The position numbers were made by a program, and so were the translations under genes. From positions 1 through 64,000 of IMG/VR virus record IMGVR_UViG_3300043395_004689: a stretch of 64,000 nucleotides of DNA. One strand, 5' to 3'. This document shows, piece by piece, positions 7,030 to 47,456 of the stretch. This DNA is from a virus. Numbering within the stretch: position 1 is the stretch's first letter; every line of letters begins with the position of its first letter. The notes beneath the pieces were generated by a model that made no database searches, was not told the DNA's origin, and saw only the letters and a program-made list of their open reading frames with translations.

Positions 7030-8040
7030 ATGAAAAAGCTAACACTAATTAAACAGCGCGAACAGGTATTGCAACTAACTTGGTTCATAAACAATATTTG
7101 TACCAATCATTGCGACTATTGTCCTCCTATATTACACAATGGTGCTAACCATAACTACGACTGGACTCATGCTCGTAGCTTTTTAACCAGACTAATAGAT
7201 CGTCATAAAAAGATAAATTGCCTTTTACTTGGCGGTGAGCCAACAGTAAGCCCATTTTTAAATGAAGCAATTGACATGTTGCATTCGCGTGGGCATACAA
7301 TTTCATTGACCAGTAACGGAGTTCGCTCAGTTGAGTATTGGAAAGACATTGCTCCTAAAGTAAATAGTGTAGCTTTCAGTTATCATCCCGGCTATGGCAT
7401 TGAAGATTTTTTTGAGAAAATTGAAGCCATTGGCAAGCATACTCAAATTGGAGTTCGAGTCATGTTTGATTCTAGGCACTGGGACAAGGCTCTGGCATTT
7501 TATAATCAGTGCATAACGATACCATACCTTCGTGTTGATGCAGTTAGAATACTTTCAGAAATTGCAGGCGGTCATACAATTGGATCCGACTACACAGCCG
7601 AACAGCTAGAGTGGTTAAGTATCACTACAAAAAAAGAAATTGCACCTCAACAACATGCTGTTCTAAAAAAGCAAAATCCGCAGTGGAAATTGTTGTACAT
7701 AGGGTCTACTTTTCATTACGACGATGGATCTACTGACCAATACGGTGATGCTAATCATTTAATTTCGTCGGAGAAAAGTTTTTTTAACGGATGGGCTTGT
7801 AGCATTGGAGTAGAGAGTTTGTATATCAACTGGGATGGTCGTGTTAGAAAAGGCAACTGTAGACAAGGACCTGATCTATTTCATCTCAATGATCATGCTA
7901 ACCATTCTTTACCAACTGAAGGTGAAATTTGTACAATGGGCAGATGTATATGCCCAACAGATGTTTTAGTAACAAAATTTCCAGTAGCACAAAAAAGTAT
8001 CATTCAGCCGACGCCGGTGATTCAATTGGTACCACAATAA
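7030..8040 (+). CDS. Radical SAM protein with C-terminal auxiliary-cluster Cys
   Basis: 336 residues. The radical SAM cluster motif CxxxCxxC is Cys24-Cys28-Cys31 (CTNHCDYC) and the SAM-contact motif GGEP is at 68-71. Five more Cys near the C-terminus (257, 277, 301, 306, 308) resemble a SPASM/Twitch auxiliary Fe-S domain, typical of enzymes that modify peptides or proteins. It is followed 1 nt later by a second radical SAM gene and then a family A partner. Substrate unknown. Confidence 0.88.
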   Translation: MKKLTLIKQREQVLQLTWFINNICTNHCDYCPPILHNGANHNYDWTHARSFLTRLIDRHKKINCLLLGGEPTVSPFLNEAIDMLHSRGHTISLTSNGVRSVEYWKDIAPKVNSVAFSYHPGYGIEDFFEKIEAIGKHTQIGVRVMFDSRHWDKALAFYNQCITIPYLRVDAVRILSEIAGGHTIGSDYTAEQLEWLSITTKKEIAPQQHAVLKKQNPQWKLLYIGSTFHYDDGSTDQYGDANHLISSEKSFFNGWACSIGVESLYINWDGRVRKGNCRQGPDLFHLNDHANHSLPTEGEICTMGRCICPTDVLVTKFPVAQKSIIQPTPVIQLVPQ

Positions 8041-8041
8041 T

Positions 8042-9154
8042 ATGCGTTGGCAATCAGTAAAAAAACTTCACTTAGAAATCAGTGCTTTGTGCAATGCGGC
8101 ATGTCCTAATTGTGCTCGCTATCCAACTGCGGGCTACTACGAGTTACCCAGCATCAAACCCGAGCATGTTTGGACCTTAGAACAAACTAAGCAAAGATTT
8201 CCAGCTGGTAGTCTAAGCAACATAGAATTTATTTCTTTTAATGGTACTGTTGGTGACTTTATTACCAATATCGAAGCATTGGAAATTATTCAATATCTTC
8301 ACAACAACTCTAGTCCAATGGTTTGCAAACTGATCAATACCAATGGCTCAGCAAGAAAAGAAGAGTGGTGGCAAGAACTGGCTACCATTCCAAACCTAAG
8401 AGTAAATTTTGGCATTGATGGCCTCAGCGACACTCATCATCTTTATCGTCGTAATACAGATTGGCAAAGGATCATTGACAATGCCAGCGCATTTATTGCC
8501 GCAGGAGGTGAAGCACACTGGGTTATGACTATATTTCAGCATAACCAACATCAGGTTGCTGACTGCGCCAAGCTTGCATCTGAATTAGGCTTTAAGCAAT
8601 TCTGGGCCAGGCATACTGATAGAGAAATTGTACCAGCAAGAGATCGTAACAGGCAAACAACACATTGGATTCGCCCAGCTGACAATGCTCCATCAATGAA
8701 CTTGAAAGTTGTCACTGAGCAAGGAGTTGCACACAAGGAACAACAATTCCTTATAAAAAATTTATATCAAGCAAGTCAAATTCACAACAACATTCCTTTA
8801 CCAAGTTTGGAAAATTGTGATAGCCTACGCGAACGCATGGTCTATGTTGGAGGAGACTGGACAGTGGTACCTTGCTGTTTCCTTGGTGCCATAAGTTTTA
8901 CACGCGAAGGTGACAACCGCTATGATAATTTAGTAAATGCTCTTGCAGAAAATAACCTAACACTAGAAGATTTAAAAGCTAGCGAAACACAAACTGTAGT
9001 TGATATTGTTGATCGCGGATTTGACTGGATATACAATAGAATAACAACATCGCGAGCATTGACAGCTTGTTATAATCATTGTCATCCCAAAGATTCGGCC
9101 TTTCGTACCAGCCAGTCAGACATGAAATCTAAATATGCCAAAACTGCAAGTTAA
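8042..9154 (+). CDS. Radical SAM protein with Twitch/SPASM-like tail
   Basis: 370 residues. CxxxCxxC is Cys17-Cys21-Cys24 (CNAACPNC). GGEP is replaced by a FNGTVGDF segment (about 66-73), as in some viral and SPASM-type members. C-terminal Cys 259, 278, 279, 343 and 347 could hold an auxiliary cluster. The end overlaps the family A gene by 20 nt, which points to coupled translation of the three. Confidence 0.87.
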   Translation: MRWQSVKKLHLEISALCNAACPNCARYPTAGYYELPSIKPEHVWTLEQTKQRFPAGSLSNIEFISFNGTVGDFITNIEALEIIQYLHNNSSPMVCKLINTNGSARKEEWWQELATIPNLRVNFGIDGLSDTHHLYRRNTDWQRIIDNASAFIAAGGEAHWVMTIFQHNQHQVADCAKLASELGFKQFWARHTDREIVPARDRNRQTTHWIRPADNAPSMNLKVVTEQGVAHKEQQFLIKNLYQASQIHNNIPLPSLENCDSLRERMVYVGGDWTVVPCCFLGAISFTREGDNRYDNLVNALAENNLTLEDLKASETQTVVDIVDRGFDWIYNRITTSRALTACYNHCHPKDSAFRTSQSDMKSKYAKTAS

Positions 9155-10043
9155 CTTTGATCTAGGTTTTAATCTAACTTACCAAATTGTTGATTGCGAA
9201 TCTTCTAGGTTTTTCTTGGACAGCATACAGTTAGTATGCCCTAACGACATTTGTCCTACATCCTTAAAAAATGGATTTGCATCAGATGAACTAATCAATT
9301 TGCAGACCAACAGACTGTACAAAGTTGCCAATTATATTAACAGTATATTCCCTAATGAAGTACAGATTGTTCCCTTAGACTCTGATTGGAAACTGGCATT
9401 GCAAATGATGCACACACACTTTCCTGATTTAACAAGTAGGCTTAGTGGCCCAGAATTACAAGCAATAACACCCAGTCTGGGCGAGTTCAATGATCTAATA
9501 CATTGGCTAGACAAAGAGCTAGAAAGAAAACACAGAGGAAACGTTCTCAATAAAACCTGGGCAACACTTTGCTTAGACTTTAATAGATCTGACCGTTGCC
9601 AGCATCGTCCTATACCTGCTGAAGACTATGAGCTCTTTACGCACGAGCTGTATTTTGGTGGACTGCATTTGCACTATGACAATGTTGGAAGGCATCCTTG
9701 GGAACTTTTCAGCAGTTCCGATTATCATTGTCCAGCAGATCAAGTTATAAGTCAAAATCAAATCAGCGCCAGTTGTAATTTATATTTTAACGATTGGGAC
9801 CTTCTAAGAAAAACAAAACAAGTTCAGTCACTGGCGCAGTACCAACTAAAATTCAACAAGTTCTATCACGACAGGGGAGGAATTGATTTTTTTAAATATG
9901 CCCTTGATGATTCTAGACTAGCAGTAGGGTACATGAAAATTGGGCAGCTTGAAAATTTAGCTGATTACTCAACCGTTGACCTTAGACGCAATTTGAGAGA
10001 ACAATTGGCAAAATCTAACATAATTGGCTGGGAGGTTTGGTAA
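9135..10043 (+). CDS. Family A protein, copy 1 (unrecognised, radical-SAM-linked)
   Basis: 302 residues with no known domain that I recognise. It shares a full-length pattern with 28828-29682, 31973-32935 and the C-terminal half of 29679-31973: an N-terminal strand pair (LTYQIVDC, residues about 14-21), FNDLIHWLDKELE (118-130), a core FGGLHLHYDNVG (174-185) followed about 15 residues later by QVISQNQI (203-210) and a NLYF strand, then a GYMKIGQ segment and a short hydrophobic C-terminus. It overlaps the upstream radical SAM gene, suggesting a partner or substrate-binding role. The relationship was found by eye, so the alignment needs profile support. Confidence 0.6.
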   Translation: MPKLQVNFDLGFNLTYQIVDCESSRFFLDSIQLVCPNDICPTSLKNGFASDELINLQTNRLYKVANYINSIFPNEVQIVPLDSDWKLALQMMHTHFPDLTSRLSGPELQAITPSLGEFNDLIHWLDKELERKHRGNVLNKTWATLCLDFNRSDRCQHRPIPAEDYELFTHELYFGGLHLHYDNVGRHPWELFSSSDYHCPADQVISQNQISASCNLYFNDWDLLRKTKQVQSLAQYQLKFNKFYHDRGGIDFFKYALDDSRLAVGYMKIGQLENLADYSTVDLRRNLREQLAKSNIIGWEVW

Positions 10044-11883: not shown

Positions 11884-13293
11884 ATGAAAGCAAATAATTT
11901 CAGCAACGATAGCTTTTGCCCTGAAGTGTACAATCAAATTCAGATTGATATGCAGGGCGATTTAAAAGTTTGTTGTCTATCTTCGGATGGTGGACTAGCC
12001 AAGGACCTTGATGGAACACCAATGAATGTAAAAACACATTCAATTGTTGCTGCAATGAACAGCGAAACACACAAGCAGCATCGACTAGATCTAAGCAATA
12101 ATATCAAGCCTCAGAGATGCAGTAATTGTTATAATTGGGAAAATCACAGCAATAACATAAGTCGTCGTAAAAAGTTTATCAGACTGTCTGAGCATACACT
12201 GGACTATGTCAAAGCCGGTGAAGCATTTGATGTAACAAACGATGATGGTTCCATTGATGTTGACACTACCAAGCTGATAAACTTAGATATAAGATTTGGT
12301 AATCTTTGTAATCTCAAGTGCATTATGTGCGATCCAGGAAACAGCAGTTTGTGGTACGAAGACTGGGAACTACTATCTAGAAAATTTTCAAAAACTCGAC
12401 CCAATGGTAGATCAGTAAAATTTTCTTTGGGCGGCATAGATCCTGCGACAGGAAACACACAGTATTGGAAAGACAAAGACAAATTCTATTTGCTGGAAAA
12501 AAATCAGCACGGAAAGCTAAAATTACAAAACGAAGAAAACTGGTGGGAAACAGAATCCTGGAAAACTCAGTTTGTAAAAATTGCACCACAATTACAGTAC
12601 ATCTATTTCACTGGTGGTGAGCCGTTGCTGGTCCCAGCAATGGAAGACCACTTGGCTTACCTGGTTGAAAACGACTTCGCTAAAAATATCATGCTCTGCT
12701 ACGATACAAATTTAACAGTTGTCAATCCAGGTATTATCGACAAATGGAAATTTTTTAAAGATGTTGAATTGCGAATCAGCGTCGACGACACAGGAGATCG
12801 CTACAATGTAGTTCGCAATCCTGGAAACTTTGACAAGCTTTGTGACAACATAAATCGTGTTCAACAGACCAATATAAAAATTAAGCATGTGAGCATAGTC
12901 TGCCATTTGGCTAATGTTTATGGGGTAGTTCGTGTTGCTAAACTTGCAAAACAGCTAGGCATTGGAATGTCTCTGCGATTTGTGTCTAGGCCAACTTGGA
13001 TCAATGTGTTGAATCTGCCGCAGTCTGCCAAAGAAGAAGTAATTGCAACTCTCACCAAATTCTTAGAATCAGACGAATGTGAGTCTATTCACGGATATGA
13101 AAATTTTGTCCACCAACAAATAAAGTATTTTCAAAATAACCTAACAGCACCATACACAGAGTCAGACCTAGAAACTTTTGTGCAGGTAATGAATCTAATG
13201 GACCAATCCAGAAATCTCAATTGGAAAGAAACACTATCGGATGTTGCACAGTTACTTAGAAATCATTGCCCAACACTGGCCCTAGATCAATAA
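11884..13293 (+). CDS. Twitch-type radical SAM protein with N-terminal Cys domain
   Basis: 469 residues. An N-terminal domain with Cys12, Cys30/31, Cys79 and Cys82 (FCPEVYN, VCCLS, CSNCYNWE) resembles a SPASM/Twitch cluster domain placed ahead of the core. The core has CxxxCxxC at Cys142-146-149 (CNLKCIMC) and GGEP at 244-247. The same order is seen in 25831-27270 and 27267-28847. Probably a protein- or peptide-modifying enzyme; substrate unknown. No family A gene is adjacent. Confidence 0.88.
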   Translation: MKANNFSNDSFCPEVYNQIQIDMQGDLKVCCLSSDGGLAKDLDGTPMNVKTHSIVAAMNSETHKQHRLDLSNNIKPQRCSNCYNWENHSNNISRRKKFIRLSEHTLDYVKAGEAFDVTNDDGSIDVDTTKLINLDIRFGNLCNLKCIMCDPGNSSLWYEDWELLSRKFSKTRPNGRSVKFSLGGIDPATGNTQYWKDKDKFYLLEKNQHGKLKLQNEENWWETESWKTQFVKIAPQLQYIYFTGGEPLLVPAMEDHLAYLVENDFAKNIMLCYDTNLTVVNPGIIDKWKFFKDVELRISVDDTGDRYNVVRNPGNFDKLCDNINRVQQTNIKIKHVSIVCHLANVYGVVRVAKLAKQLGIGMSLRFVSRPTWINVLNLPQSAKEEVIATLTKFLESDECESIHGYENFVHQQIKYFQNNLTAPYTESDLETFVQVMNLMDQSRNLNWKETLSDVAQLLRNHCPTLALDQ

Positions 13294-25764: not shown

Positions 25765-25783
25765 TATCTAGAATTATACTGTA

Positions 25784-25815
25784 AAAGCCAGTGGTCTGAC
25801 CACTGGCTTTTTTCT
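25784..25815 (+). terminator. Intrinsic terminator
   Basis: AAAGCCAGTGG (25784-25794) pairs over 11 bp with CCACTGGCTTT (25800-25810), loop TCTGA, followed by more T. It separates the small-gene region from the radical SAM operon starting at 25831. Confidence 0.93.
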
Positions 25816-25830
25816 TTGCTAAGTATCGTC

Positions 25831-27270
25831 ATGGATCCAAACAATTTACCACCTGCCTTTTGTGTGCTCCCTTGGATGCATACCGCCATTAATCCCAATG
25901 GGGATGTTAGTCCCTGTTGCATGTCCAAATTTGGATTTGCCTATGGAAATTTAAATAAAACTCCTTTACTCAAAGATATATTCAACAGTGATACAGCCAA
26001 ATCTGTTAGAAAAGAAATGCTAGAAGCAGATCAGTTACCAGAAATCTGTACTCGCTGTAGCTATGTTGAAACGGTGAGAGAAGAAGTGGTCTCTGATATA
26101 AAAACCGAATCTTATCGTCAGAGGATGAACAAAAAATATAAAGATTTTATTAAAACATTAGAACCAAACCCCGACGGTTCTGCAGAGTTTCGACAGTTAT
26201 ACATTGATTACAGATTTTCAAACAAATGTAATTTCAAATGCATCACATGTGGTCCAACCTTGAGTTCAAGCCATGCAGTTGAGTTTAAAAAGCTAGCCGA
26301 ACTTAATCCGCTTGTGTATGGCTCTAAAACTCCAGATGATACCAAGCCAATTTCTAAGGCTCTGATCGAAGTTGATCATGCCAGTATGTTTGAACAGTTT
26401 AAGGAATTTGGGCACGAAGTTAGAGAAATTTACTTTGCTGGCGGCGAGCCATTGATCAATGATCATCACTATGAAATTTTGCAGTACATCATTGACAGCC
26501 AGCAACCTATCTACATATACTACAATACAAACTTTAGCGAGCTTAGATATCGAGACCATAATTTACTTGACATGTGGCGCCGAGTCAACGGAAAGGTAGA
26601 TATATTTGCCAGCATTGATGGTTATGGTCTCGAAGGTGAGGCCATTCGCTATGGTTTGGATTCTAAGATCTTTGAAGATAATGTTAACACTCTTATAGAA
26701 GCCAGAATTCCCAATGTAAATTTAAATTTTTCTATCACCTTTGGCATTGCTAATTATCATAGTGTAGTTGATACGACTAAGTGGCTTGTAAAACTCTTGC
26801 CGGACTGGTACAGAAGTGAGCGCAATATCCTATCAACCAATGTAGGATATAATCCAATCACCTTTAGCAAAGAATTCTCCACTCTGTTTATGAACCAACA
26901 ACAGCGACAGGCAGCTATCGAATTAGTAACCGCTCAAATTGAAAATTTTGAAAACGAATTCAGCAAGAAATATGCCAGCGACCTGCGCTTTCATTATCTA
27001 ACTTGGATTTCAAATCTTCATCGCGCAGCCTATGACAACCAAGGCAAGCGTGGAATGATTTTAACTCGATGGGGATACATGGATAAAACCGACGAAATTA
27101 GACAACTTGATTGGAAACAAAGACTTCCAAATTTAGCTCGACTTTGGGCGGAGATTTGGAACGAGCTAGATCAACTCGGCATTGATATGCAGATAAGAAA
27201 TAGCCTAGACAAACCAGCTATTAGAAGCATTGATGCTTACATTGCTGAACACAAGATAGGCCAGCAATGA
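25831..27270 (+). CDS. Twitch-type radical SAM protein, first gene of the cluster
   Basis: 479 residues from ATG 25831. N-terminal Cys domain: Cys11, Cys29/30 (VSPCCMS) and Cys73/76 (CTRC). Core cluster CxxxCxxC at Cys133-137-140 (CNFKCITC), GGEP at 204-207. This N-terminal-auxiliary then core order matches 11884-13293 and the next gene. Such enzymes generally modify ribosomally made peptides or proteins by radical chemistry. It overlaps the next radical SAM gene by 4 nt (ATGA). No strong promoter or ribosome site is visible; TAAGTA at 25820-25825 lies 5 nt before ATG. Confidence 0.9.
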   Translation: MDPNNLPPAFCVLPWMHTAINPNGDVSPCCMSKFGFAYGNLNKTPLLKDIFNSDTAKSVRKEMLEADQLPEICTRCSYVETVREEVVSDIKTESYRQRMNKKYKDFIKTLEPNPDGSAEFRQLYIDYRFSNKCNFKCITCGPTLSSSHAVEFKKLAELNPLVYGSKTPDDTKPISKALIEVDHASMFEQFKEFGHEVREIYFAGGEPLINDHHYEILQYIIDSQQPIYIYYNTNFSELRYRDHNLLDMWRRVNGKVDIFASIDGYGLEGEAIRYGLDSKIFEDNVNTLIEARIPNVNLNFSITFGIANYHSVVDTTKWLVKLLPDWYRSERNILSTNVGYNPITFSKEFSTLFMNQQQRQAAIELVTAQIENFENEFSKKYASDLRFHYLTWISNLHRAAYDNQGKRGMILTRWGYMDKTDEIRQLDWKQRLPNLARLWAEIWNELDQLGIDMQIRNSLDKPAIRSIDAYIAEHKIGQQ

Positions 27271-28847
27271 AAAAACCACCACAGGTAAAAATTATGGATC
27301 AGTTTACAAAAAACATCGTTGAAACAGAAGCCAAGATCAATGACATCAGTCCAAGTATGTGTATGGCCAAATGGTATCAGGTAACCATACATTTACAAAA
27401 TGGTCATACTCACAGTTGCCACCACCCAGGAACTCATTTGGTTCCATTAGAAGAACTTAGAGAAAATCCCAGTGCTCTGCATAATACCAAGCACAAGAAA
27501 ACTCTTAGAGAAATGATGGTCACTGGTGAACGGCCAAAAGAGTGCGACTACTGCTGGCGCATTGAAGATGTTGGAGAGCGAAGCGATCGTGTGTACAAGA
27601 GTGCTGACTCTTGGGCTCGTCCTTACATTCCTCTAGCTCAAGAGGCACAAAAAAACAAAACCTTATTGGACTTTGCCAATGCAGATGTGAATCCTACCTA
27701 CGTTGAAGTAGTATTTGACCATACCTGTAATTTCAAGTGCGCTTATTGTGCGCCTAATATCAGCAGTCAGTGGATGGAGGAAGTTAAAGAACACGGCCCT
27801 TACCTAACTTCTCCTTACTTTAATGATCTGCGCTGGATTGAAAAGCAAGGTCAAATGCCTATTCCAAACCGGGAAGAAAATCCTTATGTGGAAGCATTTT
27901 GGAAATGGTGGCCTACGCTGATTCCGGGACTACACACATTCCGTATTACCGGCGGCGAACCCCTGTTAAGCAAGAATACTTTCAGAGTAATGGATGATAT
28001 CATTACCAATAACCCAAATCCCAATCTGCATTTGGCTATTAACAGCAACATGTGTGTTCCACAAAAGATCTTTGATGAGTTTGTTGTCAAGTTGAATCGA
28101 GTAAGAAACAATGTGCAAAAGGTAACAATTTATACCAGCATTGATACTTTTATCCCTGAGCACAATGAGTACATTCGCTTTGGTATGATACACGACGACT
28201 TCTGCCGCAACGTTGAAAAGCTATTAGACAGCGTAGAGCAAGAAATTACTCTAAGCTTTATGATCACTATCAGTAATCTAAGTGTGTACGGCACACGCGA
28301 ACTAGTTGAATGGATTTACAAGCTTAAGGAAAAGTACAAGGGCAAGCACAGACTCATGCCTGATTTTCCTTATCTGCGTCATCCGGAATTTCTCTGCGTT
28401 GATGTCAATGCCGAAGATGCTGTGCGCGAATTAGAAAGAGCCTTGGAGTTTGTCCGAGAAAAAAGTGTCAGCGAATTAAGCAAGACCTGGGAGCAAGAAG
28501 AAAAGGATCGATATGCTTTTAATTGGAAAAACTATGCATTCTTTGACGACTTTGCAGTTCAACGTCTGGGTAGGGTTGTTGAGTTTGCCAAAGATAAGGT
28601 AGTTAATCCTAATCCTAATTTAGGCACTCGCATGGAAGACTTTGCTCTTTATGTTGATGAGTACGACTATAGGCGAGGCACCAAGTTTACAGAGCTGTTC
28701 CCGCAAATGGTTCCTTTTTATAATCGCTGCAAAACACTTTTAATTAACAGCGGTCGTCCAAGGAACCTGCGAAAGGAGTCTGTGGTTAAAGTTGTGCCTA
28801 AAAAAGGTTCTTTGTTTGATTTAGCAAATGGCAAAAAGAAAGTTTAA
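27267..28847 (+). CDS. Twitch-type radical SAM protein, second gene of the cluster
   Basis: 526 residues. N-terminal Cys32, Cys51, Cys93 and Cys96 (with THSCHHPG and CDYC) give an auxiliary-type site. Core Cys154-158-161 (CNFKCAYC) and GGEP at 229-232. About 50 residues longer than its neighbour, with an extended charged C-terminal region. It overlaps the first family A gene by 20 nt. Two different radical SAM enzymes coupled in tandem suggests successive modifications or a heterodimer. Confidence 0.9.
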   Translation: MKKPPQVKIMDQFTKNIVETEAKINDISPSMCMAKWYQVTIHLQNGHTHSCHHPGTHLVPLEELRENPSALHNTKHKKTLREMMVTGERPKECDYCWRIEDVGERSDRVYKSADSWARPYIPLAQEAQKNKTLLDFANADVNPTYVEVVFDHTCNFKCAYCAPNISSQWMEEVKEHGPYLTSPYFNDLRWIEKQGQMPIPNREENPYVEAFWKWWPTLIPGLHTFRITGGEPLLSKNTFRVMDDIITNNPNPNLHLAINSNMCVPQKIFDEFVVKLNRVRNNVQKVTIYTSIDTFIPEHNEYIRFGMIHDDFCRNVEKLLDSVEQEITLSFMITISNLSVYGTRELVEWIYKLKEKYKGKHRLMPDFPYLRHPEFLCVDVNAEDAVRELERALEFVREKSVSELSKTWEQEEKDRYAFNWKNYAFFDDFAVQRLGRVVEFAKDKVVNPNPNLGTRMEDFALYVDEYDYRRGTKFTELFPQMVPFYNRCKTLLINSGRPRNLRKESVVKVVPKKGSLFDLANGKKKV

Positions 28848-29682
28848 ATCTGTCAGGCTGACCTTTGTCAACGATGATGCCAAAGAACAGATACTAGAAT
28901 ATAAACTAGTACGCTCTCCCGCCAGAGATGCTTGGGTATCTCAAATTGAAGCAGCAGTCGCAGATCGTGAAAACCTAGTTCATCTTGGAACTGCTAATGT
29001 CCCAACGCCCGAGCGTTTAAAAAGGCACTGGGACATAGTCAGGTACTTTACAAATTTGGCAAATCAGGATCATCTCTTAGATGAATGGTTGCATTTGCCA
29101 CAGACTTTGGATTTAGAACAAGACAACAGCAAGTTATTCAATGAGCTGAGGGCTAGGTGTCAGGCCTATGAGATGTATGCATCTGTAAATCAGCAAGAGT
29201 CAGAGACAAGGGCCAACTTAAAAAGAGTAAGCAGAGCAATTAGTATATTTGAATATGTGTTAAATTCAGGCTCAGATAAACCGGCTCAGGCTTATTGGTT
29301 TAAATCGCAAAATCCTCCAAGCAAAATCCCAAATCTGGATCAGGATAAGCATCTTACCAACAAAGTAAGCTATGGAGATTTGGTTATGTTAGGCCCGGGC
29401 ATTTCGCGAACGGCCAATGAAGCTAGGCTTGCCAATGATGTTCAAGTAGTAAAAAGAAACATGATCAGTGAATGGTTGCCAAGCCCTATAACACTATTGG
29501 CGTTTAGTGATTTCTATGAAGATCTGGCAGCAACACAGCAATGGCTTGTTCAGCAAGGCAGCAAATTAACTGCCAAACCTTCATACTGCATAGTTGGTAA
29601 ATTAGTAACAGAGATTGCCAAAGACGAACTTGGCAATTTATTAAATACCTACAAGATATCAAGCATGGACCTTATACAATGA
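28828..29682 (+). CDS. Family A protein, copy 2 (unrecognised)
   Basis: 284 residues. Shares the family A layout: LEYKLVRS near residue 23, FNELRARCQAYEM (about 104-116), YGDLVML (182-188), then QVVKRNMI (206-213), LLAF and a C-terminal TYKISSMDL. The usual Tyr of the core motif (LHY in copy 1) is changed to LGP here. Overlaps the radical SAM gene before and the fusion gene after (4 nt). Function unknown; probably a partner or substrate-recognition protein for the radical SAM enzymes. Confidence 0.62.
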   Translation: MAKRKFKSVRLTFVNDDAKEQILEYKLVRSPARDAWVSQIEAAVADRENLVHLGTANVPTPERLKRHWDIVRYFTNLANQDHLLDEWLHLPQTLDLEQDNSKLFNELRARCQAYEMYASVNQQESETRANLKRVSRAISIFEYVLNSGSDKPAQAYWFKSQNPPSKIPNLDQDKHLTNKVSYGDLVMLGPGISRTANEARLANDVQVVKRNMISEWLPSPITLLAFSDFYEDLAATQQWLVQQGSKLTAKPSYCIVGKLVTEIAKDELGNLLNTYKISSMDLIQ

Positions 29683-31973
29683 GCAAAACATATTTCTTGC
29701 TTAACATAAAAAATGTCAAGCCTTTTAATCCAACCTTGGATTACCTTGAGCTGTTAAAAAAGACCTTTAAGAATTTATACGGTAAGCCTGAGGATGAAAT
29801 TCACATAACAGATCATCCAACGGGCTATGGCATGCACATTGATCAAGCACTAGCAAATCCAGAGATTACTGAATTTGTGGTTGCTCCTATCGACCTTTAC
29901 GAGCCCGATGTAATTCAGAACATGAGATCGCAGGCGTTGCTTGGCTCACAGCACTTGGTGGCAAAAATTTACAATTCCACTGATCAAAAAGAATACTGGA
30001 GCATTGATCCGGATTTATTTTATCTAAGTTTTGCAGGCCTTGACAGAACACAAAGTCTAGACTGGGGCTCTATGAGCACACTGACAGTAGGACAAGGTGT
30101 TCATTTTAATATCCCCAAAGAAATCAACGGCGTTTATTGTTTTGAAGAATGTATTCATTTTCCGCATGACATGGAAGCGGGCTGGGGTTGGATTATATTC
30201 AACAAACTGATTGGGCGTGGTCACTTGGTGGCTCAGCGAGACCCTAGCATTCAAGTTAACTGTGTAGGATATTATGAAAACTTGGTTAGAAACATAACCG
30301 ATATTCCAACAGTTGCTGACTTAGACGACCAGCAAAGAGCCTACTATAGTATTTCAAGACAAATCATGCTAGCAGAATGGGAACAGGAAATGTTTAATAA
30401 CACCATTAATGCTACAGGTTTTACTCAAAATAATGTATTTGTTGAAAACTTTTACATGGTGTCAGATTATAGATTCACTGGACTACAACAACTGGTAGCA
30501 CTGAATAAAAACAACGACACCAGACTGATATTTGTACACGACACGGACGCAGACAAAGCTAATATTGAACATATTCTAGCAGCCTGGACAGGCACAAACA
30601 CCAATGAGCTAGCAGTCACCGAAGACATTCAATCACAACTTGCGGAGTTTTATCAAACCTTTGCTCCCAGCGAGTTTGAGGCTTTTTGGAATTACTGCAA
30701 GTCCATCTATCATGCTCATTACCTAAGACATGAACTAGACTTTCTTGATGATTTAGAATCACAATGTCATGTTAACAATGTATTTTGGATGAGTGACCGT
30801 GGAAATTATTCCACACTACTGCGAGCAACCAAGTCTAGACTAACAGCCACTGAATTTCATTATCAGAGAGTAGACGGTTTGGTTTCTATTGTAAAAGTAG
30901 GGCCAAGATATTATCAACGCAATTTTTACAAAAAATTTCGTATGACTTTTAGAAATACACAAACCAATGCTCAACAGACTATAAGCTGGCTATTAAAAGA
31001 AAATCTGTTGGCACAGAAGTGGGCAAGATGCAATCAGTACGACTACCTAGAACAAGAATGTACAGCCGAAAAGAATTACATGTTACAGCATTGGGAATAC
31101 GATGACTATAACCCCAATGGGCGACACTTATCAGCTCTTTGCATTGAGATGAATAGATATGTTTCTATTATCAATGAATATTTCAATGGCAGCAGTGATC
31201 GTCGTGTAAATTATCACATTACTCAATATTTTGATCCGCAAACACTCAATCAAGATATCCTCAATGAGATTCATCATCATTTTGAAGTTCTCATTGGTCA
31301 AGTATGGAATATAAGTGACTATTTTAAAAAGGCCGACAAGCCCACATGCTTTGCAATTAGACAGCTTAATAATCTTTGTCACGAAATGGAAAGCCTGCGT
31401 CGTCGAGGTGTCCGTGAATCAAAGTATTGGGATGCATACATTTATTTCCCTTGGATACCTGGATATCGTTATAAATTTGTTGACAGCGATTACGACCATT
31501 GGCAAAGACCTCGTATTTTTGGTGACCTAAATCTACACTATGCACAACTAGGAAAAACGCCCTTAGAGGCCTGGGGAGGCCGCGATGAAATTATTTTTGA
31601 TGACAATATCAGTGGGTTGAGATATCTCAGTGGAGAGTTTGTTATCAATTTTAGTCCTGACATTCCTGTAGAAGAACAACTAAAACACATAGCAAAAAAC
31701 GATGAGAAATTTTTCCCCTGGCTTAGAAGCCGTGGACAAGATCCTGAAAGCAAGTATACCGGAGTTGGTAATATTGTAGTTGGCACATTTGATCGCAGTG
31801 AGTTTCCTGGAAAAACTGCCGAAGAAATCATGCTTGACCTATTTCAATATGATGACATTTATCGTTTAGAACTGCTTGACGACAATGGAAATATACTGTC
31901 AGAAAAAACACTTGATTATACATGGTATGATGTTTTAAGAATAACTGACCCAACTCGCAATGGAGGTCAGTGA
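29679..31973 (+). CDS. Family B plus family A fusion protein
   Basis: 764 residues in two parts. Residues about 1-400 match the stand-alone protein at 32932-34338: FTGLQQL (266-272) before TRLIFVHDTD (281-290), and FWNYCKSIYH then NNVFWMSDR with YSTLLR. Residues about 410-764 match family A: KFRMTFRN, LNEIHHHFEVLIG (528-540), FGDLNLHYAQLG (614-625), IIFDDNISG and a late GNIVVGTFD. The B part looks Rossmann-like (hydrophobic strand ending in Asp) and may bind a nucleotide or SAM; that is inference. A natural fusion implies that A and B proteins work together. Confidence 0.62.
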   Translation: MSKTYFLLNIKNVKPFNPTLDYLELLKKTFKNLYGKPEDEIHITDHPTGYGMHIDQALANPEITEFVVAPIDLYEPDVIQNMRSQALLGSQHLVAKIYNSTDQKEYWSIDPDLFYLSFAGLDRTQSLDWGSMSTLTVGQGVHFNIPKEINGVYCFEECIHFPHDMEAGWGWIIFNKLIGRGHLVAQRDPSIQVNCVGYYENLVRNITDIPTVADLDDQQRAYYSISRQIMLAEWEQEMFNNTINATGFTQNNVFVENFYMVSDYRFTGLQQLVALNKNNDTRLIFVHDTDADKANIEHILAAWTGTNTNELAVTEDIQSQLAEFYQTFAPSEFEAFWNYCKSIYHAHYLRHELDFLDDLESQCHVNNVFWMSDRGNYSTLLRATKSRLTATEFHYQRVDGLVSIVKVGPRYYQRNFYKKFRMTFRNTQTNAQQTISWLLKENLLAQKWARCNQYDYLEQECTAEKNYMLQHWEYDDYNPNGRHLSALCIEMNRYVSIINEYFNGSSDRRVNYHITQYFDPQTLNQDILNEIHHHFEVLIGQVWNISDYFKKADKPTCFAIRQLNNLCHEMESLRRRGVRESKYWDAYIYFPWIPGYRYKFVDSDYDHWQRPRIFGDLNLHYAQLGKTPLEAWGGRDEIIFDDNISGLRYLSGEFVINFSPDIPVEEQLKHIAKNDEKFFPWLRSRGQDPESKYTGVGNIVVGTFDRSEFPGKTAEEIMLDLFQYDDIYRLELLDDNGNILSEKTLDYTWYDVLRITDPTRNGGQ

Positions 31974-32935
31974 TGTATGATTACTTAGACAAATGGTATC
32001 ATGTTATTCTAAAGCATAAAACAGATTCCGCTGCACCTCGGCAACGACTTAGTTTTAGATTAATTAATACACCAGTTACTGAGCTATGGTTGGAAACCAT
32101 AAGGGAAACCATTGCTGACCCTAATTTTAAAGTGTACTACAATCAAATGGCCACCTTTATTCCAACTCTAGAGAAAATTCACAGTATATGGGATGAAATG
32201 TACCAAGGAGTTCAAGCAGCCAACAGTAAACAATGGGTTGATGTTGATTACATATCAATGCCCGAGCACTTCAATCCTGACGAAAACCCGCAGGCTTTGT
32301 TAAATCACTTACACTATGAATTTCATAGGTTTGAAGAAGCAGTTGCTACCGAGCGTTGGCGAGTGATTAACGATGCATACGATCCTTTACAAATTGTCAA
32401 TGTGCTGATACACAAATTAGAGCAAATGACAACCATGTGGTTCTCAAATTTCCCACTGGATAAAACTCTTCTAGTTTCAACATTTTTTATACATAGAATT
32501 AATCCCAATGACGGGAATCCGCTGCTGTCCGTTAGGCCAATACCCAATGAGCTTTATCAGTACTGGAACCCCAGCGACGCCGACGGTGTACTGCTACTGG
32601 GATATCATACCATTGGTAAAAATCTTTTCCATTGTTACAAGGACAATGATGTTAATTTGGTCAAAATGAATATGATTAGGCCGCAGATAAACCTTGGCAC
32701 AGAAACACAGATGTATTTTGGTGGATGGCCTACCTGCGATCAGCAGGCTTACTTAGAAGGCATGCATCAATGGGTCAAAGACAATCACCTAGAAGCTTAT
32801 GTAGATTCTCATGCACCACAGCACTCTGTGAGTCAACAACCCTTGCTTGGCAAAATACAAAACAATCTAAGCAGACAAGAGATCAGCGACTTTTTTGAAT
32901 ACTATCAGATTGAAACAGTAGAATTAGAAGAATGA
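31973..32935 (+). CDS. Family A protein, copy 3 (unrecognised)
   Basis: 320 residues from ATG 31973, after a strong TGGAGGTCAG site; it overlaps the previous TGA by one base. Family A landmarks: LSFRLINTP (26-34), LNHLHYEFHRFEE (110-122), GVLLLGYHTIG (205-215), LVKMNMIRPQI, QMYF, then LLGKIQNN and YYQIETVEL at the end. Four-base overlap with the next gene. Function unknown. Confidence 0.62.
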   Translation: MYDYLDKWYHVILKHKTDSAAPRQRLSFRLINTPVTELWLETIRETIADPNFKVYYNQMATFIPTLEKIHSIWDEMYQGVQAANSKQWVDVDYISMPEHFNPDENPQALLNHLHYEFHRFEEAVATERWRVINDAYDPLQIVNVLIHKLEQMTTMWFSNFPLDKTLLVSTFFIHRINPNDGNPLLSVRPIPNELYQYWNPSDADGVLLLGYHTIGKNLFHCYKDNDVNLVKMNMIRPQINLGTETQMYFGGWPTCDQQAYLEGMHQWVKDNHLEAYVDSHAPQHSVSQQPLLGKIQNNLSRQEISDFFEYYQIETVELEE

Positions 32936-34338
32936 AAACAGTAGCAGTTGGATTATATAATCAGCTTGGAAATTATTCACAGAAATTTCAGGAGCGAATG
33001 CAAGAAATAACAGACTATGGGTTAATCACTGAGTCTAGGCAGTACTGGGTTCAATCACAAACTCGTCTTCAATACCAACATAAAATTTTTTCCTCCAGCA
33101 TAGATGATATTATGACACAGGCTGCTGCCTTTGGAGTAGACTATGTGTATATTATAGCTCTTGGTCATCGTAGTACAGTGATTGATCATTTATCCGCTGC
33201 CGTTGCTTGTCTTGAAAATACCAATCATGCTGCATTGGCTCACATATTGCAAGATGATCCAGACCAAGATTCTCAGTTTTATTCCCTGCATCATCAGTGT
33301 GTGCTCATTGATTTAAACAAATGGCAGCAAGCAGGCCGTCCTCAGTGGGGAGAAAACACTCGTGTAGTAGATTACAGTTTACCAACAATCAACAGAAGCC
33401 AAGAAAATTTTCACGACAAATATACACCTTACTGGATTGCACCATCATCTGACTCTGCTAAACAATATTCTGGTGTACTAAGAGAAGGATGGCAATTGAT
33501 CAAAGGAATCATTGAATCCGGGCAAAGCATTGGAAATTTCCCTCAAGAAGTTCGCAATTTAAAAATGCATCTTTATCCAGAATTTGGAGGACCATTTGAA
33601 CGCATAATAGTTGATGGCATTGATGAAATACCAACAAACTTTAATCAGCGTCGATATTTACAAGCTACAAGTTTTAAATCAGCTCAACGAACTGTGTTTG
33701 TTTACAATACTGATCCAATGCACAACAAGGTCAACATGACCTATGACAAATCAACTAGACTTGATAATGTCTATGCTGTTGCCGCCGGATTCAGGCCACT
33801 ACAGTTATTGAATGCTTGTCAGTACCACAGTGGTACTAGAGTTGTTTATTTTGATTATAGTCAATCGGCTCTTAATTTTAAAAAATGGCTATGGGAGAAT
33901 TGGGATGGTCGTGATTATAATGCAGCCATTGGCTTCTACAAAACTCAAGTTGATCCGCAGTTTAGTCCAATTTGGTTTGTTGGCAAGAACTACGATTCTC
34001 AATGGAAAGAAGTGCTGGATTATTTTGGTGGAGAAGATGCTTGGCTAGAATTTTGGCAAGCATATCGCAAGCTTGAACATGAATTTATTCACTGTAGTTT
34101 GTTTGATGATTATACAAATCTAACAAATGATATGAAGCAACATTCGGGTAATAACTTGGTTTGGTTTAGTAACAGCTTTCATACCGAAGCAGCATTAAGA
34201 CATTACTCTGGAAACAAATTAAAAGAGATGTACAATCAGTGTCTTGCTAACTTTGCAAAGAACAATACCAGTATACAGATCTGCGGAACTGACAGTTTGG
34301 GCATTGAAAACTGGGTACACCATGGAGAGCTAACATGA
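32932..34338 (+). CDS. Family B protein, stand-alone (unrecognised)
   Basis: 468 residues. Landmarks shared with the N-terminal half of the fusion: FRPLQLL (287-293), TRVVYFDYSQSALNFKKWL (302-320), FWQAYRKLEHEF, and NNLVWFSNSFHTEAALR (407-423). The VVYFDYS strand after a helix looks like a nucleotide- or SAM-binding Rossmann strand, so a transferase is possible. Overlaps its neighbours by 4 nt on both sides. I know no named family for it. Confidence 0.6.
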   Translation: MKTVAVGLYNQLGNYSQKFQERMQEITDYGLITESRQYWVQSQTRLQYQHKIFSSSIDDIMTQAAAFGVDYVYIIALGHRSTVIDHLSAAVACLENTNHAALAHILQDDPDQDSQFYSLHHQCVLIDLNKWQQAGRPQWGENTRVVDYSLPTINRSQENFHDKYTPYWIAPSSDSAKQYSGVLREGWQLIKGIIESGQSIGNFPQEVRNLKMHLYPEFGGPFERIIVDGIDEIPTNFNQRRYLQATSFKSAQRTVFVYNTDPMHNKVNMTYDKSTRLDNVYAVAAGFRPLQLLNACQYHSGTRVVYFDYSQSALNFKKWLWENWDGRDYNAAIGFYKTQVDPQFSPIWFVGKNYDSQWKEVLDYFGGEDAWLEFWQAYRKLEHEFIHCSLFDDYTNLTNDMKQHSGNNLVWFSNSFHTEAALRHYSGNKLKEMYNQCLANFAKNNTSIQICGTDSLGIENWVHHGELT

Positions 34339-35081
34339 TACCTAGTGCTATTGTAGAATTTTTCAACGACATTGGCTCTCCCTGGTCTGTGGATTTTAAA
34401 AAGCAACCTATACCAACATTTGAGCATGAATATCAATTGCTAGACTGGATTATTCATCGAAGCCAATGGCCTTATTTGCCAATAACTTTACCGGATGCAC
34501 CTTACTCAGACATGCTTCGAGAAGCATTGGCACTTGAAGACTTATTTGTAGCCCACAGATCTGCCCCCAATGAACTAGCAGAATATGCTCATCGTGGCTG
34601 GCGCAGTATTTGTTTACACGGCGAGGCCTGGAACAAAACACAGCATTATCACGACTACCCTGAAAATGCAGGCAAGACCATTGATGAAATTCAATATAGT
34701 TGGTGCCCTGAGATCACCGAACGCTGCCCAGAAACCACAAGATATTTCAAAGAACTTTTCCCCTATCACAATTATCAACGACTGCGCTACATGTGGTTAG
34801 AGCCCAATGGCTACATACAACCTCATCGTGACAGAACTGAAAATTTCTTGCAACCAATGAATATTGCACTGAACAATCCCGACGGTTGTGTTTTTAAAAT
34901 GCACGAAAAGGGTTATGTACCTTTCAAGGACGGCGGCAGCGCCAGTCTAGTTGACATTGGTAATCTACATGCAGTTTGGAACAACAGCGACACTCCACGC
35001 ATACACATGATAGCTCATGCTCAGTGGAAACCAAAAGAGTTTACTCGCATTGTTATCAATAGCCTAAAAGAATTGCTATAG
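34335..35081 (+). CDS. Aspartyl/asparaginyl beta-hydroxylase-like 2OG oxygenase
   Basis: 248 residues. Fe ligands HRD (His164, Asp166) and His212, with Arg222 for 2-oxoglutarate, embedded in YMWLEPNGYIQPHRD and GNLHAVWNNSDTPRIHM, the cupin-like core of aspartyl beta-hydroxylases. Last gene of the coupled operon (ATGA overlap), so hydroxylation probably belongs to the same modification pathway as the radical SAM enzymes. Cytoplasmic (no signal peptide). Confidence 0.8.
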   Translation: MIPSAIVEFFNDIGSPWSVDFKKQPIPTFEHEYQLLDWIIHRSQWPYLPITLPDAPYSDMLREALALEDLFVAHRSAPNELAEYAHRGWRSICLHGEAWNKTQHYHDYPENAGKTIDEIQYSWCPEITERCPETTRYFKELFPYHNYQRLRYMWLEPNGYIQPHRDRTENFLQPMNIALNNPDGCVFKMHEKGYVPFKDGGSASLVDIGNLHAVWNNSDTPRIHMIAHAQWKPKEFTRIVINSLKELL

Positions 35082-35130: not shown

Positions 35131-35574
35131 ATGATTAAAATTATTGCAGCCGCTTTACTTTCAATGACAGTAGCAGGCTCTGCTCTTGCAGAAAAAGTAC
35201 CAGAAATGAAAACATACGACTGGAAGATTACTCGAGTCGTTGATGGCGACACAGTTGAGTTTGCCGCACCTTGGTTACCCGACCCATTAAAGAAGCGTTT
35301 AACTATTCGCGTCTATGGCGTTGATACTCCAGAAAAGGGTTTCCGTGCCAAGTGCGAAAGCGAAGCCAAGCGCGGTGCCGCTGCTACTGAGTTTACCAAG
35401 AAAGTAATCACAGAAAGTAAAGTGGCACAAGTGGCCATCTGGGACTGGGACAAGTTTGGTGGTCGTGTTCTAGGAGACATTATCTTAGATGGTGTGAGCC
35501 TAAGAAGTCTTTTGATTAAAAATGGTTTTGCTCGTGAGTACTATGGCGAGGCAAAACAATCATGGTGTAACTAA
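35131..35574 (+). CDS. Secreted staphylococcal-nuclease-like thermonuclease
   Basis: 147 residues. Signal peptide (MIKIIAAALLSMTVAGSALA), then an SNase domain: RVVDGDTVEF, IRVYGVDTPEKG, a Glu-rich helix and FGGRVLGDI. Active-site Asp, Arg and Glu of the family appear to be in place. It would hydrolyse DNA or RNA in the periplasm, perhaps for nucleotide salvage or excluding other phages. GAGAGGAGAATTAAC upstream; own transcript likely. Confidence 0.88.
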   Translation: MIKIIAAALLSMTVAGSALAEKVPEMKTYDWKITRVVDGDTVEFAAPWLPDPLKKRLTIRVYGVDTPEKGFRAKCESEAKRGAAATEFTKKVITESKVAQVAIWDWDKFGGRVLGDIILDGVSLRSLLIKNGFAREYYGEAKQSWCN

Positions 35575-35676: not shown

Positions 35677-35705
35677 TTGACTTTGCACCCAAATGAATGT
35701 AAAAT
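35677..35705 (+). promoter_or_regulatory. Sigma70-type promoter
   Basis: TTGACT at 35677-35682, 17-nt spacer, TAAAAT at 35700-35705, ahead of the lipoprotein gene at 35738. Confidence 0.75.
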
Positions 35706-35737
35706 CTAGATATTACAGCTTATTTGGTGGATCAGCT

Positions 35738-36949
35738 ATGCGTAAACTCAGTACCTTAATTGTTGGCTCAGTGTTTGCTGGGCTTGCATTGTTAACTTGC
35801 ACAGCCTGTGGCGGCGGCGGAACAACTGGACCAGTTATAACAGGACCAACAGTTCCTGGACCAGTTACAGTAAACCGCGCTCGGGCATTAAGCACAGAAT
35901 CTTATCTAAATGCTAAAAATCTAGACTTCTTCAGCGAAGACTTTCCTCGAGACCAAGGCGGTGTTAATCCACTTAGCGCAGATGCAGTGGCCTTTTTTAG
36001 ATATCCCGACGGAACTCAAGGCCTGGTTGCCAGCATAAACCAATACTGGCAAAACGGATCAATGATGCCACTGAGTTCGGCTTCACCGGGTCGCATTGTA
36101 TTTTACAGAAAACTGTCATCGGACGCTCCTGGTGCTGGTATGACTGCAACTGGTTGGCAAGTTCACAATGTTGCTGTACAACAGCAGGTTCAGCCTTGTA
36201 TCCATGCTCGTAAAATTCTTGTAGCAGACTTTAACAGGGATTCTGTTCCTGATTTTGCAATCATGTGTCACGGATGGGATGCACCTCCATATCCAGGAGA
36301 ACGCAGTACCATACTGCTGAGTCAAGGCGATGGCTATGTGCTAGCACACATGTCAGATCAAGTTGATTTTTATCACGGTGGTAGTACTGCTGATTTTAAC
36401 GGTGATGGCATACCGGACATTGTTGTGACTACCATGGCAGGGCTCCGTGTTTATATCAATAACGGCGCAGGATCCTTTACAGCATCATCCACTTATACAA
36501 TTCCGGTAATGCGGAGAGCATTTCATGTGGAACTGGTCGACCTCAATGGCGATGGACACTTTGATGTTGTTGCTGGAAGTCATGAATGGGATGATGCTAC
36601 TCGTATTGTTATCAACCCAGGAAACAATCAATTTAACAACGCTAGATCAGTTACCATACCTGCGGTTCCAGGTGCCGGGGTCGTTGTTGACTTTGTGCAT
36701 ACACCGGCAACCAACTCCTTATACATCTTGAGAACAGGTGATGGCAAAAACAATGGTACAGTATTTTATCAAGGCCTGTGGCTGCAAAAGTATTCACTGA
36801 CCACAGGAATAAGCACCGTTGTGTATGCAGATCCAAATTGGACTGATCCAAGATTTGGTTATCCTTCTCGCTGGCTCAGATGGATTGACGAAGAAAACGG
36901 TTACATTGTGAGTCAATGGGGTAATGCAATTCGAATTAAAGTAGACTAA
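35738..36949 (+). CDS. Lipoprotein with FG-GAP/VCBS-type repeats
   Basis: 403 residues from ATG 35738. An N-terminal hydrophobic segment ends in LLTCTACGGGG, a likely lipoprotein signal with lipidated Cys, followed by a Gly/Pro/Thr linker. Three Asp-rich Ca-binding repeats follow: ADFNRDSVPDF, ADFNGDGIPDI and VDLNGDGHFDV, as in beta-propeller FG-GAP/VCBS proteins that bind surfaces or proteins. A phage-coded outer-membrane lipoprotein could alter adsorption or superinfection; that is inference. Confidence 0.8.
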   Translation: MRKLSTLIVGSVFAGLALLTCTACGGGGTTGPVITGPTVPGPVTVNRARALSTESYLNAKNLDFFSEDFPRDQGGVNPLSADAVAFFRYPDGTQGLVASINQYWQNGSMMPLSSASPGRIVFYRKLSSDAPGAGMTATGWQVHNVAVQQQVQPCIHARKILVADFNRDSVPDFAIMCHGWDAPPYPGERSTILLSQGDGYVLAHMSDQVDFYHGGSTADFNGDGIPDIVVTTMAGLRVYINNGAGSFTASSTYTIPVMRRAFHVELVDLNGDGHFDVVAGSHEWDDATRIVINPGNNQFNNARSVTIPAVPGAGVVVDFVHTPATNSLYILRTGDGKNNGTVFYQGLWLQKYSLTTGISTVVYADPNWTDPRFGYPSRWLRWIDEENGYIVSQWGNAIRIKVD

Positions 36950-39856: not shown

Positions 39857-40615
39857 ATGTATGAGCCCGGTCTAACTGCTAGAAAAGTAGCCACTTTCGA
39901 TACTGCAATATTTGATCAGTATCGAAAGTGGGAATCAGCATGGGATTGGGATCCGCCCAATGATGCAAATAGATATCTGCGAAGCGTTCCACCGGGTCGG
40001 CGACCAGATTATACCTACATGATATATCTCCCGGTCAACGAAGCTCGTTGCCGTGCCTTTTACAACGATATGAAAAAGTATCCACCAGAGATTTATCAAA
40101 TGTGGGAAAATATATTAAAGCCTGCCTGTGAATTCTTAGCCAGTTTGACTGGCCAAGACGACCCTGTTATTGTACAAGCAGATATTGCCAGGATGAAACC
40201 ATTGAATGGTGATACCCTGCTTCACACAGATACTCGATATAATCAACGCTACGCAAGACGCTATAACATAGCAATTAGTACTAATAATAACTGCTGGTTA
40301 TATCACCACGGATATGATTTAAATACAGGTGGCGTGAGAGATCATATCCACGAAGGAGAGATGTGGGAGTTGAATAATAAAATCCCACATGCCGCTGTAA
40401 ACCAAGGAGACACTTGGCGCACACACTTAATTCTGGATATTATGCCAAGGAACTATTGGAATCGCATGTGCGAGTTGTACGATCCATACGGCAAGGTACC
40501 AAATCCTCAGGGAAAGAATTACACCTATGATCTTGATTTAGACGGCAAGCTAATTCACGAACCGCTGTTCACAGACTTGCCACATTGCTTTAAAGCAAGG
40601 ACCAACGCGATATGA
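39857..40615 (+). CDS. Aspartyl beta-hydroxylase-like 2OG oxygenase
   Basis: 252 residues. HTD (His123, Asp125), His178 in IPHAAVN and Arg188, with AISTNNNCWLYHHG between, the aspartyl-hydroxylase core. It starts 1 nt after the previous stop and overlaps the next gene by 4 nt. Substrate unknown; a phage-encoded protein is plausible. Confidence 0.75.
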   Translation: MYEPGLTARKVATFDTAIFDQYRKWESAWDWDPPNDANRYLRSVPPGRRPDYTYMIYLPVNEARCRAFYNDMKKYPPEIYQMWENILKPACEFLASLTGQDDPVIVQADIARMKPLNGDTLLHTDTRYNQRYARRYNIAISTNNNCWLYHHGYDLNTGGVRDHIHEGEMWELNNKIPHAAVNQGDTWRTHLILDIMPRNYWNRMCELYDPYGKVPNPQGKNYTYDLDLDGKLIHEPLFTDLPHCFKARTNAI

Positions 40616-45282: not shown

Positions 45283-46050
45283 ATGGATCTAAGATTCCTT
45301 TCTCACATAAGTCCTACTGCATGGCCACACATCAGCGCAGTAGATGAACAATGGACACCGGTTCCTTGGTTGCCATTGGCTGTACCCAAAATAGAACCAG
45401 ATAACTGGGACCTGTTTTGGAAGCTGTGGAATGAAAAACAAGGTGATATCACTCGAGGTCTTAACGAAACACAATTCTGGCGAGGACTATGTTGCTGGCT
45501 AAACCCCAAAATTGATCACACCAAATTCAACTACAGCAACACAGTGGTCGACGACTGGAGTCAGCATTTTCCAAAGATGTTTGAACAGATTAAGTCTTGC
45601 TTGCCATTTACCTTTTTAGAAAAAGTAGTGCTGTGGAGTAACATCAATGAAGTAACTCCACACTTTGATCCAGATGCACAGGTTTCGCCATGGCCGGACA
45701 GTCTTAGAATAATGATCTGGGACTCAAACGACAGGCCTACTTTTTACATGTGTCGCTGGCCCGATCGCAATGAAAATTTTAATCCTCCAATAATTACACA
45801 GCGCAACAAAGGCTCATATGGTGTCAGCGCATCACGCATACCTCAAAATAAACGCATGTATGTGAATTTGCCCCCAGACACAAATTCTTTTGTATTCAAC
45901 AACGGTGCATTCCTACACGGCGCTGACTTGGCCAAACCCAAGATCATCATGGCAGTCAAAGGTCGCTGTGACAAAGATGCTTGGCTTAAACAGCTAGAAC
46001 TCAGTAGAGAAAAGTACAAGGATTACATACCCAATGCCAGTGACTATTGA
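45283..46050 (+). CDS. 2OG-Fe(II) oxygenase-like protein
   Basis: 255 residues. HFD (His127, Asp129) and distal His212 in GAFLHGADLAKPK, with YGVSASRIPQNK in between. Start overlaps nothing; the end overlaps the next oxygenase by 17 nt. Two adjacent oxygenases may act on the same substrate. Confidence 0.7.
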   Translation: MDLRFLSHISPTAWPHISAVDEQWTPVPWLPLAVPKIEPDNWDLFWKLWNEKQGDITRGLNETQFWRGLCCWLNPKIDHTKFNYSNTVVDDWSQHFPKMFEQIKSCLPFTFLEKVVLWSNINEVTPHFDPDAQVSPWPDSLRIMIWDSNDRPTFYMCRWPDRNENFNPPIITQRNKGSYGVSASRIPQNKRMYVNLPPDTNSFVFNNGAFLHGADLAKPKIIMAVKGRCDKDAWLKQLELSREKYKDYIPNASDY

Positions 46051-47438: not shown

Positions 47439-47456
47439 TAGTTGATAACTATCTGC

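Follow-up and report, generated by a model that had tools for sequence, protein, structure and literature searches.

A seven-gene operon with two radical SAM enzymes in a viral genome

The window analysed here is the first 64 kb of the 103,158-base IMG/VR virus record IMGVR_UViG_3300043395_004689, and our subject is an operon at 25831-35081, which encodes two radical S-adenosylmethionine (SAM) proteins, copies of two protein families that we designate A and B, and an oxygenase. All seven open reading frames (ORFs) are open and each overlaps the next, downstream of a strong terminator. This agrees with an initial annotation made from the DNA letters alone, which described seven genes with overlaps of 1-20 nt following a terminator at 25784. 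The features of the operon, all on the plus strand, are as follows.

25783..25811, +: intrinsic terminator, a 13-pair stem and a T run (-19.6 kcal/mol, z = -5.4), separating the operon from upstream genes
25831..27270, +: g1, twitch-domain radical SAM protein (NF033640; 276.5 bits, cut-off 170; PF04055, PF13186), 479 aa
27267..28847, +: g2, twitch-domain radical SAM protein (NF033640; 307.2 bits, cut-off 170), 526 aa
28828..29682, +: g3, family A paralogue (iterated hidden Markov models, HMMs; residue comparison)
29679..31973, +: g4, fusion of a B-like N-terminal part (about residues 1-430) and family A (about 430-764) (HMMs, hhalign, AlphaFold2)
31970..32935, +: g5, family A, with the invariant N/H/N/H/G/K/E set retained (HMMs; residue comparison)
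32932..34338, +: g6, family B, GT-A-like N-terminal and Rossmann-like C-terminal domains by a weak fold match (AlphaFold2, Foldseek)
34335..35081, +: g7, PF05118 2-oxoglutarate (2OG)-Fe(II) oxygenase with HxD...H...R (47.4 bits, cut-off 22.6)

The overlap is 4 nt at g1/g2 (27267-27270), 20 nt at g2/g3 (28828-28847) and 4 nt at each of g3/g4, g5/g6 and g6/g7. At g4/g5 it is 4 nt if g5 starts from GTG at 31970 and 1 nt if it starts from ATG at 31973; an alternative start for g1 is a TTG at 25816. A gene for a 176-aa protein and a staphylococcal nuclease (SNase) gene flank the operon. In codon statistics, the ratio of nonsynonymous to synonymous substitution rates is about 0.1 or less in the less diverged sister pairs, which marks the gene families as genuine and subject to selection.

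g1 and g2 are twitch-domain radical SAM proteins

With their whole-protein scores both g1 and g2 exceed the NF033640 cut-off, and they share four invariant cysteines in a Cys-rich N-terminal domain (C32, C51, C93, C96) as well as the core motif CxxxCxxC (invariant C154, C158 and C161), which upholds their initial assignment as radical SAM proteins with Cys-rich N-terminal domains. g2 is the most conserved gene of the core, with 85% identity to sister loci as compared to 74% for the phage DNA ligase. The twitch domain at the N-terminus can be aligned to the auxiliary domain of BtrN (4m7s; E = 4.5e-5), a twitch radical SAM dehydrogenase of butirosin synthesis that acts on an aminocyclitol. The radical SAM core of the same profile matches SkfB (6efn), viperin and cytosylglucuronate decarboxylase, and because it does so in addition to the BtrN-like twitch domain, the profile matches leave the substrate undecided. 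We rejected a prokaryotic viperin with a role in defence, since the PADLOC pVip profile gave just 21-23 bits over a partial stretch and NF038283 gave 20.7 bits against a cut-off of 180.

Families A and B and the oxygenase g7

Iterated HMMs place g3, the C-terminus of g4, g5 and a gene at 9135-10043 in one family, A, so that the window holds four copies, the fourth outside the operon. Family B (g6) joins the N-terminus of g4 (E about 1e-7; hhalign 92-95%), and the pattern A, B-A fusion, A, B initially read for the four genes after g2 is thus borne out. Neither family has a meaningful match in Pfam, PHROGs, NCBIfam or PADLOC, and their profiles found no credible sequence relative in the PDB. Tblastn against GenBank phage records returned no match to g2, g4 (B-A), g5, g7 or two further A proteins, while a ClpP positive control worked. 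The AlphaFold2 model of A, built for the A part of g4 from a 66-member alignment, reached a predicted local distance difference test score (pLDDT) of 90 and a predicted template modelling score of 0.88, and has no structural match in the PDB at E <= 0.001. Its ten viral matches in BFVD are all uncharacterised and include a 768-aa relative that is 72% identical and a protein of the isolated Agrobacterium phage Atu_ph07. A and B as structural proteins were also considered and set aside, with no family or PDB match in support.

W40, N121, H124, N156, H160, G217 and K218 are invariant across the 66 members of family A, and E245 is present in 65 of them. The search patterns that we used were biased towards N121/H124 and N156/H160; G217, K218 and E245 were free of this bias. 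The conservation suggests that the invariant N/H/N/H/G/K/E set may form an active site. Most of the invariant polar residues are lost in g3 and in its orthologues at two sister loci (L006 and L018), which suggests that g3 would be a non-catalytic partner. In T4-like contigs (L010-L015; for example 9905-10975 of L011), A lies between the terminase small-subunit gene gp16 and SNase-gp17, with no radical SAM gene in view.

The AlphaFold2 model of B has a pLDDT of 74, and its Foldseek matches are nucleotidyltransferases and GT-A glycosyltransferases (GTs) at E of about 1e-3 with low TM-scores. These matches point weakly to a GT-A-type domain that may be followed by a Rossmann-like domain, the latter by our own reading of the model. 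For g6, no match in Pfam, PHROG or NCBIfam names a glycosyltransferase, and by hhalign neither B nor A is related to any of three recurrent GT-like families (comp3, comp5 and comp9). g7 passes the PF05118 cut-off, carries HRD...H...R as read in its sequence and has a weak PDB match to a beta-hydroxylase (7v4f), in keeping with the HxD...H...R oxygenase core first noted there. The lipid A hydroxylase LpxO also belongs to PF05118, and membership is therefore no evidence that g7 hydroxylates protein.

Family A recurs beside tandem radical SAM genes

A scan of IMG/VR with the A profile gave at least 221 confirmed relatives, of which the best 80 were retained, and showed the family to be widespread in uncultured phages. 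The loci are metagenomic contigs, often partial, and the database matches depend on conserved peptide patterns. A same-strand twitch radical SAM gene directly adjoins A in 51 of 62 non-redundant loci, usually in an array of five to seven. In a reverse scan from radical SAM, for which we took the best 80 of at least 600 stretches with 8-kb flanks (several arrays ending at the flank), all 80 had two or more copies in tandem, 77 had three or more, and 38 had A. Among 2.9 million viral contigs, relatives of the radical SAM proteins turn up in just hundreds of stretches or more, and g2 lacks a match in GenBank phages; the adjacency is therefore far from chance.

Both families are also found fused to radical SAM domains, A in two loci (L007, L008) and B in five (L093-L096, L100). 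An alternative order, radical SAM-A-oxygenase-B, occurs in L094-L101 with the same parts as in the window. This recurrent co-occurrence, together with the fusions, strengthens the earlier proposal of a joint function in which radical SAM and 2OG-type chemistry go with dedicated partners. The proposal was to be dropped if A and B proved to be known structural or unrelated proteins never found beside radical SAM genes; we find no structural match and strong co-occurrence.

The core of sister locus L018 is the same as that of the window, with A on the minus strand, two radical SAM genes, A and B-A. There, a carbamoyltransferase and an SGNH gene replace the A-B-oxygenase part, and the same SNase gene follows. 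An SNase-family gene stands after A-containing modules in several arrangements (window 35131-35574; L006, L018 and L010-L014), and a gene for an FG-GAP repeat lipoprotein-like protein 3' of the cassette (window 35693-36949) is conserved in sister phages L006, L007 and L018. A genome-wide species scan gave one match, a phage-like contig (L102) filed under a Pacearchaeota metagenome-assembled genome. This contig carries tail-fibre-like genes, family A, SGNH and an IscA-like gene, and the assembled genome has 19 NF033640 matches. Phage proteins that end in CHxxCHxxCH...SRSRR and resemble modification substrates lie beside radical SAM genes at L109:11119-12009 and L110:11415-12335, both on the minus strand.

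Sugar genes surround many relatives of the operon

Among 63 loci, the genes near A were twitch radical SAM in 52, an O-carbamoyltransferase in 44, a family that looks GT-like in 36, an NAD epimerase in 25, another family in 25, SGNH in 24, a DegT aminotransferase in 22 and a GT8-like gene in 16. In the reverse scan, GT8-like genes were present in 59 of the 80 arrays and the carbamoyltransferase in 19. The GT8-like profile matches glycogenin (E = 3e-8). Families comp3 and comp5 are GT-like to the eye, and no tool supports a function for either.

A proposed role in carbohydrate editing, and its alternatives

We propose, with a probability of roughly 0.48, that a cassette widespread among large tailed phages assembles a carbohydrate, or a molecule that contains sugar, and edits it by radical chemistry, and that the operon is one version of this cassette. 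Most likely, the product would be a glycan, on the surface of the host or of the virion, that carries such decoration. In this pathway, B, with its putative GT-A and Rossmann-like domains, would build or attach a sugar. The twitch radical SAM enzymes would take hydrogen from ring carbons and thereby oxidise, epimerise or deoxygenate them, much as BtrN acts on its aminocyclitol. What the radical SAM enzymes produce would be bound or processed by family A, g3 serving as a partner without catalytic activity, and g7 would add a hydroxyl. In sister phages, the carbamoyltransferase and SGNH genes would occupy the slot of A-B-oxygenase. We favour a sugar over a peptide because the islands of relatives carry GT8-like, O-carbamoyltransferase, SGNH, epimerase and DegT genes and the operon has no precursor.

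Several observations weigh against this proposal. The copy in the window lacks every sugar marker profile tested, and PF02543 and PF01370 are absent from the 103-kb record, which may be incomplete. Besides B, the recognisable sugar gene in the window is one GT2 gene (11035-11775), 14 kb away. This lack of markers is the main weakness of a sugar substrate for this copy, and because of it the substrate is something we infer. The fold match of B is weak in both TM-score and model pLDDT, the twitch domain is a trait of the family that does not fix a substrate, and 42 of the 80 arrays in the reverse scan are without A, some of them ending at the flank. Finally, in isolated jumbo phages of rhizobia a distant A-like gene belongs to a cassette whose substrate is likely to be a protein.

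This last point bears on the protein or peptide modification system that the initial annotation had suggested. In such a system, the radical SAM enzymes and the oxygenase would alter a virion or host protein encoded elsewhere, A would bind the substrate, and B would glycosylate the modified residue. The distant A-like protein of Atu_ph07 (Agrobacterium) and Phosso (Sinorhizobium) (hhalign 88%; Foldseek E = 4.8e-9) is encoded in a cassette near a giant virion gene, together with several radical SAM proteins, a cupin/JmjC-like protein and a protein of 300 aa whose C-terminal CHxxCHxxCH...SRSRR has the look of a modification tail. The fold matches of B include collagen hydroxylysine glycosyltransferases, and g7 belongs to an Asp/Asn hydroxylase family. 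However, the GT-A matches are generic, and no CHxxCH tail protein was found in the window or in the IMG/VR loci searched, where, rhizobial phages aside, there were scattered chance-like matches and unrelated CH dipeptides in known cassette genes. The operon has no precursor or substrate gene and no coding space for a precursor, and it is sugar genes, not peptidases, transporters or leader-binding proteins, that are conserved next to A and the arrays. With B itself seemingly glycosyltransferase-like, we do not retain the initial suggestion as our preferred one and regard a protein target as unlikely, though a serious contender. A cluster for a ribosomally synthesised and post-translationally modified peptide (RiPP) was rejected, as there is no precursor peptide gene in or beside the operon and no RiPP recognition element-type leader-binding domain in the seven proteins.

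Phage DNA hypermodification includes both glycosyltransferases and radical SAM enzymes, and modification of a DNA base or nucleotide by radical SAM chemistry and sugar transfer would also fit those A loci that lie between gp16 and gp17, as well as the thyA, dihydrofolate reductase and dCMP deaminase genes that recur near arrays. Yet in the cassettes we recognised no family of 5-hydroxymethyluracil or 5-hydroxymethylcytosine synthases, base kinases or pyrophosphorylases, the gp16-A-gp17 loci are without radical SAM in the contigs at hand, and the nucleotide genes look like neighbouring core genes; we consider this explanation very improbable. The product could instead be a diffusible compound, derived from a sugar or an amino acid, that benefits the infected host or keeps competitors out. 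In their mix of carbamoyltransferase, SGNH, DegT, epimerase and 2OG genes, the loci are reminiscent of aminoglycoside-type clusters, the twitch domain is similar to that of BtrN from butirosin synthesis, and a metabolite is among the products put forward for the carbamoyltransferase/2OG clusters of jumbo cyanophages in the excerpted text of Iyer et al. 2021 (PMC7824862). No exporter or self-resistance gene stands out among the recurrent neighbours, however, and the GT8-like genes point to a polymeric or surface glycan, so that we rate a secondary metabolite as quite unlikely.

Returning to carbohydrate editing, a bolder form of the proposal, which we hold to be somewhat unlikely, is that A represents a new superfamily of enzymes, or of obligate partners, with an unseen fold, and that with the tandem twitch radical SAM proteins it carries out a virus-specific radical editing of carbohydrates without a described cellular counterpart. 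If carbohydrate editing is correct, large phages carry a modular kit in which radical SAM arrays and a family of unknown fold edit sugars. Such a kit would be a source of new enzymes for work on carbohydrates and would show concretely how phages could disguise virions or infected hosts. It would also make it easier to understand why some marine phages encode iron-sulfur (Fe-S) assembly genes of their own. Even with a protein target, a family that recurs as the partner of radical SAM enzymes and lacks a solved fold poses a clear biochemical question.

A second cassette and other genes of the window

Five radical SAM genes are present in the 103,158-base record, and those outside the operon include a second cassette with its own copy of A.

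7030..8040, +: second cassette, radical SAM protein (profile group of the radical SAM part in an A-radical SAM fusion)
8042..9154, +: second cassette, radical SAM protein
9135..10043, +: second cassette, divergent family A copy overlapping the preceding radical SAM gene
11884..13293, +: third twitch-domain radical SAM gene of the window, outside the operon

Upstream of this cassette, the first in the window, lie IscU-like (4991-5371), IscA/A-type carrier-like (5375-5695) and ClpP (6343-6933) genes, as they do in T4-like viral genomes (PMC5332604). Further proteins that resemble 2OG-type oxygenases by eye are encoded at 2034-2714, 39857-40615, 45283-46050, 46034-46930, 47442-48200, 48847-49551 and 54491-55342, and radical SAM and 2OG enzymes seem to be unusually numerous in this phage. 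The hexamer TAAGTA occurs within 120 nt upstream of 4 of 27 hand-picked gene starts (7030, 25831, 35131 and 38285), where 0.4 would be expected; from this post hoc count, it is a possible late-promoter element in the window.

Comparison with known systems

Phage radical SAM cassettes and carbamoyltransferase/2OG clusters are already known. In the open-access literature we found no description of families A and B or of the ordered cassette, consistent with the earlier remark that the system was not recognised as a described one. According to excerpts of PMC7029224, the radical SAM cassettes of pelagimyophages lie in glycosyltransferase-rich host-recognition clusters. These are likewise islands of tailed phages in which radical SAM genes lie among those for glycosyltransferases and surface sugars, but in those excerpts the cassettes are mentioned in passing, and A, B and the order array-A-carbamoyltransferase are not described. 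T4-like environmental viral genomes carry an IscU/A-type carrier and up to 12 radical SAM genes, as excerpted from PMC5332604. This combination of radical SAM richness and phage Fe-S assembly genes parallels the IscU-like and IscA-like genes of the window, although the same excerpts give no operon structure, partner families or proposed product. The jumbo cyanophage clusters of carbamoyltransferase, 2OG and halogenase genes, for which capsule decoration or a metabolite was proposed, share with our loci carbamoyltransferase and 2OG enzymes in sugar or secondary-metabolite clusters, whereas the paper nowhere uses the term radical SAM and its excerpted text describes no A or B family (PMC7824862).

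Among characterised enzymes, SkfB-type RiPP maturases resemble g1 and g2 in the radical SAM core; unlike them, the operon is without a precursor peptide and its relatives have sugar-gene neighbours. As compared to BtrN, the auxiliary domain is N-terminal here, in a permuted order and with low sequence similarity, yet the twitch domain itself is recognisably similar.

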